64,000 bases of DNA. It comes from Faecalicatena contorta (GTDB lineage: Bacteria; Bacillota; Clostridia; Lachnospirales; Lachnospiraceae). Within the stretch, counting starts at the first letter, position 1. Each line of letters starts with the position of its first letter. The notes below the pieces were generated by a model. The model was not told the origin of the DNA. It saw only the letters and a list, made by a program, of their open reading frames with translations, and did no database searches. The stretch spans positions 124,001 through 188,000 of the forward strand of contig NZ_JAFBIY010000006.1 in NCBI RefSeq assembly GCF_021531975.1, given 5' to 3'. The translations under genes were made by a program, and so were the position numbers. Below are positions 13,745 through 49,688 of this stretch, in pieces.

Positions 13745-15768
13745 GTTTTATCGGAAATCCGAACTGCGGGAAAACAACTCTGTTTAACGCTTATACCGGC
13801 GCCAATCTAAAGGTTGCAAACTGGCCGGGCGTAACTGTTGAAAAGAAGGAAGGACATACCAGATACGAAGGGCAGGACTTCAATCTGATCGATCTCCCGG
13901 GTATTTACAGTCTCACCTCTTATACTATGGAAGAAACCGTTTCCCGTGAATGCATTATGAGTGATGAAGTCGACATTATCGTTGATGTCATTGATGCTTC
14001 CTGTCTGGAACGCAACCTGTACCTCACACTTCAGCTACTGGAGCTTGGAAAGCCTGTTGTGCTGGCACTGAATATGATGGACGTAGTAGAAGAAAGGGGC
14101 ATGGAGATTGACCTGCATCGTCTTCCGGAGATGCTTGGCATCCCGGCCATTCCAGTATCAGCCCGTAAGAAAACCGGACTGTCTATTCTTATGCATGCTG
14201 TTGCACACCACAGTGAATACAGCAAACAAGGGCCTTATATTCATCATCATTCCGGCAAATCATCCAGCCATCCGCACAATCACCATGATGAATATGCAAT
14301 GGTATACGAAGATTATATAGAAGATAAAATTGATATTATAACCACTGCTCTTGCCGAGAAATATCCAGACATAACCAACAGCAGATGGCACGCTATTAAA
14401 CTTCTGGAAAAGGACAAGAATGTAACAGAAAATCATCCGCTCCCACTGGATGATGTCATTGACCGCAGCTACGAAAAAGATATCATCAACCAGAAATATG
14501 ATTTTATTGAGGAAATCATCTCGGAGGTCCTTGTTAACAAATCAGAAAAAGAAGCCTCTACAGACAAAATCGACCGATATCTGACAGATAAATGGCTTGG
14601 GCTCCCGATTTTCCTTCTTATAATGGCATTTGTTTTCTTCTGTACCTTTATGATCGGAGACTGGCTGAAGGGGTATTTTGAGATCGGGCTGGAAGCATTC
14701 TCGAGTCTGGTTGCAGGCGCACTTGCCACAATCCACACCAATCCGATGCTGACCTCTCTGATCGTAGACGGCATTATATCCGGTGTCGGCGGAATCCTTA
14801 CATTTCTGCCAAATATATTTATTCTCTTTCTGGCTCTTGCTATTCTGGAAGACAGTGGATATATGTCAAGAGTCGCCTTCGTCATGGATGATATCATGAG
14901 TCATCTTGGATTGTCCGGCAGAGCATTTCTTCCGCTTCTTCTGGGATTCGGATGTACAGTACCGGCTGTCATGGCTTCCCGGGCACTGGAAAACAAAAAA
15001 GACCGTTTTAAGACGATACTGGTAACACCTTTTATGTCCTGCAGCGCAAGACTACCGATATATGTACTCTTCTCATCCATGTTCTTCGGAAAGTATGCAC
15101 TGTTTGTGTGCTATTCCATGTATCTGCTTGGAATCATCATGGCAATCGGCACTGCATACATATTATCGAAAATAGACGGCAGCAAAGCAGAACATGCGCT
15201 TATGATAGAGCTTCCGGAATACAAATCTCCGAACGCAAGAACAATCGCCATCTATGTATGGCAAAAAATCAAGGATTATCTTACCAAGGCCGGAACAGTT
15301 ATTTTCATTGCTTCCGTCATTATGTGGATCATCCTGAACTTCGGTCCAGCCGGATATGTAACCGATATTGCCCAGAGCTTTGGCTCACTGATCGGAAAAG
15401 CGGCTGTTCCAATCTTTAAACCGGCCGGACTTGGATACTGGCAGATCATCGTTGCGCTCATTTCCGGTATTGCTGCAAAGGAAGTGGTTGTATCCAGCTG
15501 CAGCGTCTTATTCGGAATCCAGAATATTACAACCGCCCATGGCATGCAGGCAATGGTAACTACCCTTGGCAGCATAGGATTCGGAGCTGCTAATGCTTAT
15601 GCACTTATGGTATTCTGTCTGCTCTACATACCTTGTACAGCAACCATTGCTACCATTCACAGAGAACTGAAAAGCTGGAAATCCACCTTCGGTATTCTGG
15701 CCTTCCAACTGCTTGTCGCATGGGGTATGAGCTGTATCGTATATCATATCGGATTGTTAATTGTATAA
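13723..15768 (+). CDS. feoB: Ferrous iron transporter B
   Basis: A 681-aa Fe2+ transporter. The N-terminal G-domain carries G1 GNPNCGKTT (residues 11-19), G3 DLPG (57-60), G4 NMMD (117-120) and G5 SARKKTG. It is followed by a helical spacer and a membrane domain from about residue 285 with the duplicated Gate motifs (LLLGFGCTVPAVMA and SCSARLPIYVLF). A histidine-rich stretch at residues 162-188 (ten His) sits after the G-domain. Start at 13723 follows AAGGAGG inside feoA. No feoC is found; the next gene is on the other strand after a strong terminator. Confidence 0.95.
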   Translation: MSGTINVGFIGNPNCGKTTLFNAYTGANLKVANWPGVTVEKKEGHTRYEGQDFNLIDLPGIYSLTSYTMEETVSRECIMSDEVDIIVDVIDASCLERNLYLTLQLLELGKPVVLALNMMDVVEERGMEIDLHRLPEMLGIPAIPVSARKKTGLSILMHAVAHHSEYSKQGPYIHHHSGKSSSHPHNHHDEYAMVYEDYIEDKIDIITTALAEKYPDITNSRWHAIKLLEKDKNVTENHPLPLDDVIDRSYEKDIINQKYDFIEEIISEVLVNKSEKEASTDKIDRYLTDKWLGLPIFLLIMAFVFFCTFMIGDWLKGYFEIGLEAFSSLVAGALATIHTNPMLTSLIVDGIISGVGGILTFLPNIFILFLALAILEDSGYMSRVAFVMDDIMSHLGLSGRAFLPLLLGFGCTVPAVMASRALENKKDRFKTILVTPFMSCSARLPIYVLFSSMFFGKYALFVCYSMYLLGIIMAIGTAYILSKIDGSKAEHALMIELPEYKSPNARTIAIYVWQKIKDYLTKAGTVIFIASVIMWIILNFGPAGYVTDIAQSFGSLIGKAAVPIFKPAGLGYWQIIVALISGIAAKEVVVSSCSVLFGIQNITTAHGMQAMVTTLGSIGFGAANAYALMVFCLLYIPCTATIATIHRELKSWKSTFGILAFQLLVAWGMSCIVYHIGLLIV

Positions 15769-15775
15769 AGAAACA

Positions 15776-15819
15776 CCCCGGGGTAAAATGAAATTTCATC
15801 ATTTCATTTTACCCCGGGG
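15776..15819. terminator. Strong bidirectional terminator after feoB
   Basis: A perfect 19-bp inverted repeat (15776-15794 with 15801-15819) starting CCCCGGGGTAAAATG, with a 6-nt loop and T-runs on the plus side. It serves feoB and the convergent PHP gene. Its length and symmetry recall the REP-like palindromes elsewhere in the window. Confidence 0.85.
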
Positions 15820-15845
15820 TACTTTTTAATTTTACTACGTCCCTT
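15818..15845. repeat. Half copy of the GGGACGTAG REP-like element
   Basis: On the minus strand this reads AGGGACGTAGTAAAATTAAA. It is identical over 20 nt to one arm and loop of the palindrome at 44767-44809. The other arm is missing, replaced by the terminator at 15776-15819. The stop codon of the PHP gene (15835) lies inside it. Confidence 0.65.
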
Positions 15846-30525: not shown

Positions 30526-30790
30526 AAAGAACAGGCTGTAAGACTGGGAACCTGGTGCTTTGTTTCCGTAGAAGAGTGGTACAATCCGTTACTGAAAAAG
30601 GACAAAATATACAGACCGAGTCTTGTACTTCAGGTACAAGACGAGAAGACAGCTGAACGGATGAACTCATCGGGAGTTCTCCGTGAATCTATCTGGTGTC
30701 TGTCATATTTTGTCCTTTTGAAATTATGGATTGTAAGCGACTGGTCAGGAAACAAAGCATCAGATTCCCAGTCTTACAACCGTCCTTTTT
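30526..30790. repeat. 265-bp imperfect palindrome with two inner hairpins
   Basis: Arms of about 80 bp (from about 30534-30615 and 30697-30783) pair with roughly 75-80% identity. Shared blocks include TGTAAGACTGGGAA, GCTTTGTTTCC and AAGGACAAAATAT. Between them lie two perfect-to-near-perfect hairpins (GTCTTGTAC...GTACAAGAC at 30620-30642 and ACGGATGAACTC...GAGTTCTCCGT at 30657-30684). Open frames across it are shadows of the repeat. Confidence 0.7.
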
Positions 30791-30949
30791 CATACCTTAA
30801 ATGTTCTTTAGCACTTATTATCCCCTTATCGCAACAGTTTTCACTCACATTCAGAATTTTTTTGTTTTCTGTTAATACAGTCAAAAGGCAGTCACTGTTG
30901 CACTCTTTACATGTGATCATCTTAAAATCCATATTTTCTCAAAATATAC

Positions 30950-30988
30950 ATTGGGGACGGGGAAAAATTAATTTTCCCCGTCCCCAAT
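30950..30988. terminator. Palindromic terminator of the allB-permease transcript
   Basis: A 17-bp perfect stem starting ATTGGGGACGGGGAAAA with a 5-nt loop, 18 bp past the permease stop at 31006. Its GGGAC...GTCCC ends recall the REP-like family near 44 kb, although the inner sequence differs. Confidence 0.8.
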
Positions 30989-31005
30989 TATCATGGCAAC
31001 TTGAA

Positions 31006-32367
31006 TTATTTGTCAAAAATAGTTCCTTTGCGGAATGATTTGCTTGACGGCATAACCTTCATCAGTAAATAATATGCAACACCTGTTGGAATCAAGCTTA
31101 CATACCAGGACAACTGCATTACAAGTAATGAGCAAAGTGAGCCAAAGATAATAGCGATAACTGCAGCCCAGTTAATTCCTTTGAAGCATCCTTCCTTGTC
31201 ATACATATCGTTGATATCCAGTTTCTTCTTACGAAGAATGAAGTAATCAACTGCCATAACTGCGAAGATAGGTCCAAGGAATGCTGAGTAGAACTGTGTA
31301 AACAGGTTCAGTCCTGCAGCAGATTCATCTGTAACAAGCTTCCAAGGCATAACACATGCAGAAAGCACACCTACAAGGATTGTTGCATGTGACCATTTCA
31401 TCTTGAAAGATTCCATAAGTACATATGAAGGTGGAACGATATTGTTCAGTACGTTTGTTGTAACCTGTGCAAATGCGATGAAGAGCAGAGTTACAATTGT
31501 AAGCACTTTGCTTCCCATTGTTGTAGAGAATACAACTACCGGATCACTGTTTCCTGTTGCTGCTGTTACAAGAAGTCCGATAAGACCCATGAACAGTGTT
31601 ACAGGAAGAATAGCGATTGTATAAATGCTTGCAGCTTTTACCGGTTTAATATCATCTGTCGCATTACGTGAATAGTCAGATGCATTAATAATCATTGTAG
31701 AATAAATTCCAAGGAAGGAAGTTGTCGCTGCCCAGAATGGCATTCCCCATGTTCCCTCGATTCCAGAGAACACATCACCAATCTCTGTTGCAAACTGTGT
31801 CTTAACTACATATAACATGTAAATCAGGATGGCAATAATAAATACACATGAAATATTCTCAAGCCATTTAATTCCTTCAAATCCCTTGATTGCAAGAACA
31901 ACCTGCAGAAGTGTGAAAAGTGCATATACAACCGGAAGATTATCAATGCCAAACAGGATCTTAAAGCAGCTGTTGATTGCTCCTGCACCTACCCAGCTCT
32001 GGAAACCAAACCATACGATTGCCGGAAGTCCACGAAGAACACCTGGGATTTTAACACCCGTTGTTCCAAAACTACTTCTTAACTGAACAGTGAACGGAAT
32101 ACCATATGTATGTCCACATTCACCGACGATTGCCAGCGCGATTGCAATAACAGCACATCCGATTGCCATAGCAATGATAGCCTGTGTTACCGTCAGCACT
32201 CCAATCAGTCCTGCTCCCATGGAAAATGTACCGATAGACACACATCCACCCATGAAACTTGCCGTGTAAGACAGTGGTCCCATGATACGTTTTTTCGTTG
32301 GCTGTAAATCCGGATCAACATTCTTTACAAGTTCCGGGTTTAAGTTTTTGTTTTCAACCATACTCAT
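31006..32367 (-). CDS. NCS1-family allantoin permease
   Basis: A 453-aa NCS1 transporter with about 12 helices, which by context imports allantoin (PucI/AllP role). The typical early region YTASFMGGCVSIGTFSMG and the substrate-site helices WFGFQSWVGAGAIN and ATTSFLGIYSTMIINASDYSRN are present. Family members also carry cytosine or hydantoins, but it is cotranscribed 29 bp behind allB. AGGAGA precedes the start (MSMVENK; either of the first two ATGs is possible). Confidence 0.88.
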   Translation of the reverse strand: MSMVENKNLNPELVKNVDPDLQPTKKRIMGPLSYTASFMGGCVSIGTFSMGAGLIGVLTVTQAIIAMAIGCAVIAIALAIVGECGHTYGIPFTVQLRSSFGTTGVKIPGVLRGLPAIVWFGFQSWVGAGAINSCFKILFGIDNLPVVYALFTLLQVVLAIKGFEGIKWLENISCVFIIAILIYMLYVVKTQFATEIGDVFSGIEGTWGMPFWAATTSFLGIYSTMIINASDYSRNATDDIKPVKAASIYTIAILPVTLFMGLIGLLVTAATGNSDPVVVFSTTMGSKVLTIVTLLFIAFAQVTTNVLNNIVPPSYVLMESFKMKWSHATILVGVLSACVMPWKLVTDESAAGLNLFTQFYSAFLGPIFAVMAVDYFILRKKKLDINDMYDKEGCFKGINWAAVIAIIFGSLCSLLVMQLSWYVSLIPTGVAYYLLMKVMPSSKSFRKGTIFDK

Positions 32368-43243: not shown

Positions 43244-43330
43244 AATTTGGGACGTAGACTTTTTAAAAAAGTCTACGTCCCAAATTAACAAATGTGGTGT
43301 CCCTTTTTGAAAAATGTCCTGTACCTTTTT
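43244..43330 (+). repeat. REP-like element, copy A
   Basis: A perfect 17-bp inverted repeat around GGGACGTAGACT (43244-43286) is followed by a tail with two related blocks, AAATGTGGTGT and AAATGTCCTGTACC. It lies between ppdK and the convergent end of the M18 gene, where its stem can terminate the M18 transcript. Confidence 0.85.
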
Positions 43331-44766: not shown

Positions 44767-44850
44767 AATTAGGGACGTAGTATTCTTTAATTTTACTACG
44801 TCCCTAATTAACAAATGTGGTGTACCTTTTCGCCAAATGTCCTGTACCTG
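44767..44850 (+). repeat. REP-like element, copy B
   Basis: Palindrome AATTAGGGACGTAGTA with its complement (44767-44782 and 44794-44809), 11-nt loop, then tail blocks AAATGTGGTGTACC and AAATGTCCTGTACC up to the transposase stop. The loop differs from the other copies and matches the half copy at 15818. Confidence 0.85.
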
Positions 44851-44851
44851 T

Positions 44852-45619
44852 TTATTTATTCTCCACATAATTCATAGTTGCATCACACAATTGTCTTGCT
44901 TTTCTTAATGATATTTTCAGCGTCCGTTTTAATTGACCAATATACTCCTCACGAATTCTTTTTTCTTCAAACACCTGCATCAACAAAGGCAACTGATATT
45001 CCTCAAACATTTTCTCAGCTATAAGAAATGCTAATTCCTTCTGTTGAATCTCAACTTCATCGGGAATGTCATCGAAAACTTCTACTTCCTTTTCCGCATG
45101 AAATTCCACAAAACTTTTAGTATCAGAAAAATTTTTTCGATACATTGCTATTGCTTTTTCATGAAGAAGGATCGGTGTTTCTGAAATATACTCTGCCATA
45201 CTGCTGTTTTTATATCGTTCTGGTTTCTTTATCATGCCAGCTTTTACTGGATTCATATGAATATAACGAAGACATGTCCAAAAATATTTTTCATCTTCAA
45301 TGCATTCACTTGTGAAGCGATTCTGAAAAACATGTCCATTTCTGTGATGTTTATAGTTGTAATACGATGCATATTCTGCCAATATAGCAGCCATGAATGT
45401 TGATAAAATCTGAATTTCTGCCCGGACAATAAAGTGGGCATGATTTGACATAATACAATAACTATAGATTTCTACATGATATTTTTTTAGATGTTTTAAG
45501 ATTATATCTTTGAAATAGAGTTTCTCTCGCTGTTGGTAAAATATCTTTTCTCGATTAATACCTTTGACGATAATGTGGTAAATGCCTGTGCGGCTTTCTC
45601 GTCTTCTTTGTGTTGGCAT
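44852..45619 (-). CDS. REP-associated tyrosine transposase (Y1_Tnp, RAYT)
   Basis: A 255-aa single-strand transposase of the IS200/IS605-like Y1 superfamily. The HUH metal-binding motif is NHAHFIV at about residue 60. The catalytic-tyrosine helix and following block read YYNYKHHRNGHVFQNRFTSE, and RYIHMNPVKAG is highly typical of RAYTs. A C-terminal helical extension (about 185-255) ends in a helix-turn-helix-like LKRTLKISLRKARQLC. The start is at 45619 because GGGGAGG lies 5 nt before it. All motifs look intact, so it may be active on the flanking REP-like elements. Confidence 0.88.
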   Translation of the reverse strand: MPTQRRRESRTGIYHIIVKGINREKIFYQQREKLYFKDIILKHLKKYHVEIYSYCIMSNHAHFIVRAEIQILSTFMAAILAEYASYYNYKHHRNGHVFQNRFTSECIEDEKYFWTCLRYIHMNPVKAGMIKKPERYKNSSMAEYISETPILLHEKAIAMYRKNFSDTKSFVEFHAEKEVEVFDDIPDEVEIQQKELAFLIAEKMFEEYQLPLLMQVFEEKRIREEYIGQLKRTLKISLRKARQLCDATMNYVENK

Positions 45620-45640
45620 CCTTCCCTCCCCTTTCATTTA

Positions 45641-45722
45641 GGGACAGGACATTTTTCATTTGGGTACACCACATTTTTTAATTTAGGACGTAGACTTTTT
45701 TAAAAAGTCTACGTCCTAAATT
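45641..45722 (-). repeat. REP-like element, copy C
   Basis: Reverse orientation: tail blocks (complements of AAATGTCCTGTCCC and AAATGTGGTGTACCC) first, then the palindrome around TAGGACGTAGACTTTTT (45680-45722). It is two bases from the kbl stop and can serve as kbl's terminator. Confidence 0.85.
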
Positions 45723-49591: not shown

Positions 49592-49622
49592 AAAAAGCTG
49601 CCTCATCTGCAGGCAGCTTTTT
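49592..49622 (+). terminator. sstT terminator
   Basis: A perfect 12-bp stem AAAAAGCTGCCT with AGGCAGCTTTTT, 7-nt loop, running into the T-run of REP-like copy D. Confidence 0.9.
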
Positions 49623-49688
49623 CATTTAGGTACACCACATTTTGCAATTTGGGACGTAGACTTTTTTAAAAAGTCTACGTCCCAAATT
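49623..49688 (-). repeat. REP-like element, copy D
   Basis: Tail with one block only (complement of AAAATGTGGTGTACC), then the palindrome around GGGACGTAGACTTTTTT (49646-49688, 17-bp arms). It ends two bases from the glyQS stop and separates two convergent genes. Confidence 0.85.

Follow-up and report, generated by a model that had tools for sequence, protein, structure and literature searches.

REP-like repeats pose the question of how they spread and are maintained, and RAYTs that are inherited vertically that of their use to the host cell. Both questions apply to a locus at which a Y1 transposase gene stands between two inverted copies of a dispersed hairpin element. Here we describe such a locus in a 64,000-nt stretch of DNA (the window) from the Lachnospiraceae genome of a gut bacterium, 2.44 Mb in 34 contigs (the source genome), and ask what kind of system it is and how its hairpins come to occupy their sites. 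The window contains the following features:

43244–43325, plus strand, dispersed element copy between an M18-aminopeptidase-like gene and the next gene
44767–44848, plus strand, element copy downstream of the RAYT gene; palindrome 44767–44809, tail units 44813–44826 and 44835–44848
44852–45619, minus strand, gene of a RAYT-type Y1/HUH transposase of 255 aa, likely start ATG 45617–45619; the longest ORF starts at 45637
45641–45722, minus strand, element copy upstream of the RAYT gene; palindrome 45680–45722, tail units 45663–45676 and 45641–45654
49629–49688, minus strand, dispersed copy at the 3' end of a glyS-like gene, with a single tail unit
15818–15845, minus strand, half palindrome abutting a CCCCGGGGTAAAATG palindrome
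30950–30988, no strand assigned, tailless palindrome of a second family (GGGACGGGG); the stop of the minus-strand ORF 31006–32367 is 17 nt away

The four copies proposed in the initial annotation were recovered by a repeat search (at 43244 and 44767 and, inverted, at 45680 and 49646), with pairwise identities of 74–89% over 61–88 nt in matching orientation. Two details of that annotation needed correction: the copy at 49629–49688 has one tail block where two had been described, and the GGGACGTAG palindrome said to occur in every full copy reads AGGACGTAG at 45680–45722. The window contains 10 occurrences of GGACGTAG vs 0.62 expected from shuffles; one of them, at 14079, lies within an ORF and outside any element copy. 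The tail blocks match exactly at 7 places and with at most two mismatches at 9, vs 2.45 in shuffles, a count equalled by 1 of 100 shuffles. The half copy noted at 15818 is real. It abuts the CCCCGGGGTAAAATG palindrome (15776–15819), at the end of what we take from reading to be a FeoB-like gene, as though this palindrome had replaced the missing half of the element; a pairing of the half copy with the occurrence at 14079 was rejected, the latter being inside an ORF. The second-family palindrome is overlapped by a plus-strand ORF of 125 aa (30661–31038).

Copies beyond the window, which the initial annotation expected, are numerous: the source genome has 38 GGACGTAG palindromes by pattern, and 36 distinct intact copies were present among the fetched loci, as selected by a script that required exact 8-nt arms and excluded degraded copies. 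The palindrome core, GGACGTAG-15 nt-CTACGTCC, is 31 nt long in 36/36 copies and is extended by about six further pairs in most of them. Its scheme is GGGAC-GTAG-(AT-rich arm)-CTAC-GTCCC, with the GTAG word inside a paired stem of at least 16 pairs, opposite CTAC. Of the 23 pair positions, six covary at p<=0.001 and a seventh does so at p=0.009 (shuffling of the 36 copies, kinship not corrected). The palindrome is followed by tail units, AAATGT(GG/CC)TGT(A/C)CC, at 22-nt spacing, and the double-block tail described earlier is, genome-wide, an array of zero to three units (none in 4 copies, one in 10, two in 21 and three in 1). Read on the other strand, the units are GG(T/G)AC...ACATTT, and palindrome arm and tail units have GG(G/T)AC...AC(T/A)TTT in common.

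The gene between the inverted copies encodes an intact Y1 transposase, as first described. The protein, RAYT A, matches Pfam Y1_Tnp (3.4e-11) and NCBIfam REP_Tyr_transpos (NF047646; 76.1 bits, just below the cut-off of 80). In the 255-aa form the HUH motif is H60-A-H62, and Y119 and N123, which align with Y115 and N119 of 4er8, are also intact. Translation probably begins at 45619 (MPTQ...), because the ATG at 45637 is part of a Shine-Dalgarno-like run of purines and the proteins of most relatives start with M/L-P at that place. The C-terminal fragment of 86 aa is predicted to form a helical domain (pLDDT means 88–97 from residue 21), for which there was no Pfam HTH hit and only weak fold matches, none decisive. 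The structure model of the full-length protein (mean pLDDT 59.1) was too poor for use; in a fold search with it, Y1 transposases ranked highest, and no match reached E<=0.001.

A second RAYT gene of the source genome (C11:62423–63181) encodes a protein 42% identical to the first, and each type is present in a single copy. The arms on its two sides are inverted, 55 nt long and built in the same way, except that GGGG stands in place of GTAG, the two families being GGGAC-GTAG and GGGAC-GGGG. The arms around RAYT A are 84 nt long and 74% complementary, and those at loci L033, L034 and L036 measure 77, 100 and 111 nt. The genome contains 53 GGGACGGRG palindromes, one of them the palindrome at 30950–30988 in the window. 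Both genes are flanked by their own family, one gene per repeat family.

Orthologs of the two RAYTs adjoin the same neighbours across several genera, as seen in translated flanks. Locus A was found in seven sources (the source genome, a F. contorta genome used for comparison, a Dorea MAG, G035, G036, G147 and G128), next to a gene that we take, from reading the translated ends, to be kbl- or glyS-like and, in most cases, to one that we take to be M18-aminopeptidase-like; this identification excludes the downstream neighbour in G147. Locus B, next to proS-like and cca-like genes (named in the same manner), was likewise found in seven: the source genome, G035 (with a stop), G214 (cca side only), G169, G148 (proS side only), G109 and F. 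contorta. In a tree of 22 proteins, which left out F. contorta B and has 10 of its 19 inner branches open, the seven locus-A proteins form one clade (97/96) and six locus-B proteins another (92/86). The word at locus A is GTAG on at least one flank in 7/7 sources, with the AGGACGTAG reading in G035 and G128 and a degenerate arm on one flank of G128 and one of G147; at locus B it is GGGG or GGAG in 6/7 sources and GTGG in G035, and some arms differ. Protein clade, locus and word co-segregate. Two cognate systems in one genome, with same-locus orthologs across genera and differing words, offer built-in specificity controls.

Under a rule of 7/7 in clade A and at least 5/6 in clade B, the clades are separated by residues 21, 96 and 105 only, two of which are in the GTAG-loop (p about 0.009, kinship not corrected). 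A code in which residues 96 and 105 specify the word is clean between the two clades and does not hold beyond them, where H96/E105 occurs with other words in more distant RAYTs. Repeats of the form GGG(A/T)C-word with other words flank such distant RAYTs (L041, L042, L053, L055, L083), which suggests that the outer motif may be widespread while the word varies.

The gene and the repeat are also associated among genomes. The strict GTAG palindrome was found in 7 of 200 genomes of the family, each of them one of the 17 in which a RAYT is present at E<=1e-40 (p 8.5e-9, kinship not corrected). Three of the seven hold a single copy, which may be chance because the reversed control pattern also occurs once each in 3/200 genomes. 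Ten of the 17 RAYT carriers are without the strict palindrome; G035 among them has 28 under a looser pattern, which yields 50 in F. contorta, 26 in G186, 16 in G214, 8 in G036 and 6 each in G147 and G128. GGRG palindromes occur in 18/200 family genomes vs 3/200 for the control; seven genomes have at least five, and six of these have a RAYT, among them G035 with its stopped locus-B gene. The initial annotation had named repeat families in genomes lacking the transposase as evidence that would speak against its proposal, and such families were found in part. G214, one of four genomes with at least five strict GTAG palindromes, has 16 GTAG palindromes and no clade-A RAYT, only the locus-B RAYT and a distant one (34%), and G101, one of the seven with at least five GGRG palindromes, has six and no RAYT at E<=1e-3; in the other repeat-rich genomes a RAYT is present. 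At class level the strict GTAG palindrome occurs in 2/391 genomes, the source genome and G586, and the genus-level search set consisted of the source genome alone. The seven matches in G586, a member of another family, are GGGACGTAG palindromes with longer and different interiors.

The nearest known kind of system is the TIRtron/TIRYT (RAYT group 1, TnpA_Y1 subclass 2.1). TIRtrons are described as a RAYT-like gene between long inverted repeats, some of them self-complementary, with moderately abundant dispersed copies (PMC3733652), and long inverted repeats are present on both sides of the gene here. The genome of Stenotrophomonas maltophilia K279a has two TIRYT genes and two TIR families that match them (Di Nocera et al. 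2013, PMC3733652). Subclass 2.1 is likewise described with a C-terminal extension, non-canonical GTAG-loop residues and a link to TIRs (PMC6006769); the C-terminal HTH types given for TIRtrons and this subclass are Bac_DnaA_C, HTH_23 or HTH_28. By informal comparison, the TIRtron motif GGGGWSAS is approached by GGGACAGG, which some tail units contain, and by GGGGACG, which some palindromes contain. In contrast, the main text of PMC3733652 contains no word match for Firmicutes or Clostridium, and the cross-genus conserved loci, 22-nt unit array and in-place turnover described here have no counterpart in that account as far as it was available. Subclass 2.1 was linked to TIRtrons, and in the available text no REP-like sequences were found near its genes (Quentin et al. 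2018, PMC6006769), whereas both RAYT genes of the source genome have a dispersed hairpin family. Our literature search found no dispersed family tied to TIRtron/subclass 2.1 genes in Firmicutes, no report of two RAYT loci conserved across Lachnospiraceae genera, and neither a 22-nt unit array nor evidence of site-by-site turnover; the vertical inheritance of single-copy RAYTs is already in print (PMC8049555).

We consider it probable that the locus is a TIRtron-like RAYT system, in which a position-locked Y1/HUH enzyme would be encoded between two copies, inverted to each other, of the element that it recognises, with the dispersed, non-autonomous copies as its substrates. The enzyme would most likely recognise the word-bearing hairpin as single-stranded DNA, nick it and rejoin it, and hairpins would in this way be copied or swapped among resident sites. 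Copies would persist where they are least harmful or somewhat useful, chiefly just after stop codons.

The REP/RAYT identity given in the initial annotation holds in that a RAYT-like gene with an inverted, dispersed family is present in a Firmicute; it does not extend to a canonical REP system. Canonical REPtrons (E. coli TnpA_REP, 4ER8) resemble the locus in their single-copy Y1 enzyme, in flanking dispersed palindromes near gene 3' ends, in GTAG/GTGG words and in a separate repeat family for each enzyme. That GTAG serves here as the guide tetranucleotide at the hairpin foot, read as in E. coli TnpA_REP, is nonetheless unlikely. The words GTAG and, at locus B of G035, GTGG are canonical (PMC6006769), and the clade-splitting residue 105 aligns with H101 of 4er8, but the word lies inside the long stem and not as an unpaired 5' GT[AG]G at the hairpin foot, tail units are present, and 6/7 locus-B sources carry GGGG or GGAG. 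The GTAG-loop residues listed for TnpA_REP, W94, Q95, E100, H101 and R104 (PMC6006769), correspond to F, Q, S, E and E in RAYT A (alignment E 0.22), with only Q95 kept. GTAG may, alternatively, belong to a short inner hairpin as its 'double foot'. An origin as a simple insertion sequence of the IS200/IS605 type, with remnants, agrees with the Y1_Tnp domain and is otherwise highly improbable: each type has one copy with the same neighbouring genes in several genera, no movement as a unit to several sites was seen, and the IS200 model scores 19.8 bits vs a cut-off of 55.

The hairpins might, on the other hand, be a host signal at gene 3' ends, a terminator or mRNA stabiliser under selection, with a secondary link to the RAYT. 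Their position is indeed striking. One of the 36 intact copies was flagged inside a rough ORF; the other 35 sites are arranged as 3' end-palindrome-tail-5' end in 25 cases, in reverse in 4, convergently in 4 and divergently in 2. At 29 sites a gene 3' end faces the palindrome, with the stop codon within -23 to +20 nt in 28/29 and formed by a TAG inside the palindrome in 6/29 (distance -13); distances were taken to first-ATG ORFs, were copied by hand and have a crude null. In all, 28/36 hairpins lie within about 20 nt of a stop codon, in agreement with the earlier statement that copies fall near gene ends. The terminator role proposed with it was not borne out, as a U-run behind the hairpin is absent in 3/4 window copies and only the copy at 45680–45722, read on the plus strand, passes a simple rule for intrinsic terminators. 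An Rfam search gave two weak matches, both below gathering. A host signal would account well for the position beside stop codons, for sites common to different genera, and for another hairpin that was seen by eye at two F. contorta sites without the element. We regard it as improbable, however, given the single copy in four that passes the terminator rule, the restriction of the GTAG family to 7/200 family genomes, all with some RAYT, and 2/391 at class level, and the separate family of each RAYT. E. coli REPs near stop codons affect translation termination, and hairpins at such places may bear on mRNA ends and translation termination in Firmicutes as well.

The presence or absence of copies at individual sites, a comparison suggested initially, was determined against 958 kb, about a third, of the F. 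contorta genome, in which 17 sites of the source genome were testable (C11:102666 ran off its contig and was left out). Ten of the 17 are occupied in both genomes and seven are not. All ten shared sites, both RAYT flanks among them, have the same orientation, and unit number differs between genomes at some. The 15-nt interiors are nearer to copies elsewhere in the source genome at seven shared sites (one marginal, 10 vs 10.7), tied at one and nearer to the ortholog at two. The copy downstream of RAYT A and the orthologous one in F. contorta have identical interiors; the copy upstream of RAYT A is of the source-genome type ACTTTTT, found in 25/36 copies. Shared sites with source-genome interiors in 7/10 cases suggest turnover of hairpins in place, and in-place replacement would be the simplest reading of these sites. 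In G186, a genome of the same family as the source genome and with repeats at positions equal to those in G225 (the genome of the Dorea MAG, of which a contig is labelled Lachnospiraceae), four sites appear shared (two aligned on one flank only), with two genome-specific and two ortholog-like interiors. At the seven sites unoccupied in F. contorta, no exact palindrome was found up to 260 nt from the corresponding position:

both flanks aligned: C26:167250; C33:26180; C26:173652 (flanks about 5 kb apart in F. contorta)
one flank only: C11:474680; C21:228485; C16:94958; C21:256171

None of them is a clean empty site with exact borders; where F. contorta lacks the element, the intergenic sequence differs altogether, and at C26:173652 a tail unit persists beside a rearrangement.

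Independent insertion at hot spots could also produce shared sites with differing interiors, and is an explanation that we consider possible, if doubtful. Places just 3' of stop codons are clearly preferred or tolerated, and one locus pair of the source genome and G186 (L127/L064), dropped for this reason as a fifth shared site (5/20 became 4), holds copies in opposite orientation; against it stands the common orientation at 10/10 sites shared with F. contorta, RAYT flanks included. An extension of the turnover reading is offered only tentatively: two ancient, position-locked Lachnospiraceae RAYT loci might overwrite resident hairpins (hairpin exchange) rather than mainly insert new ones, so that each family would evolve in concert and its word would drift with the recognition loop (residues 96 and 105). 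That REPs evolve by gene conversion is an idea reportedly brought up in a review of 1988. Comparing strains at shared sites whose hairpins are genome-specific allows a direct test of in-place turnover, and hairpin exchange, if true, would give a natural series for decoding word recognition.

Some further observations concern single sites. At the place in F. contorta corresponding to 43244–43325 there is no palindrome. The one-unit copy at 49629–49688 adjoins a GC-rich hairpin with a T-run (about 49592–49624), and F. contorta has a corresponding hairpin, followed by a lone tail unit, at the edge of a rearrangement. TTGACA was seen by eye after the tail in four copies, as if element ends might provide -35 boxes, but TTGACAAAT beside the C4 copy looks native because it also stands by the G186 copy. 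At locus L003 (G000:C25:27536, compared with G224:C13 from about 2926), identity to F. contorta is 99.4% over 886 nt to the right of the element and 72% in the left flank, and the copy in F. contorta is of the source-genome type; judged from these identities, the pattern is apparently a recent DNA transfer ending near the element.
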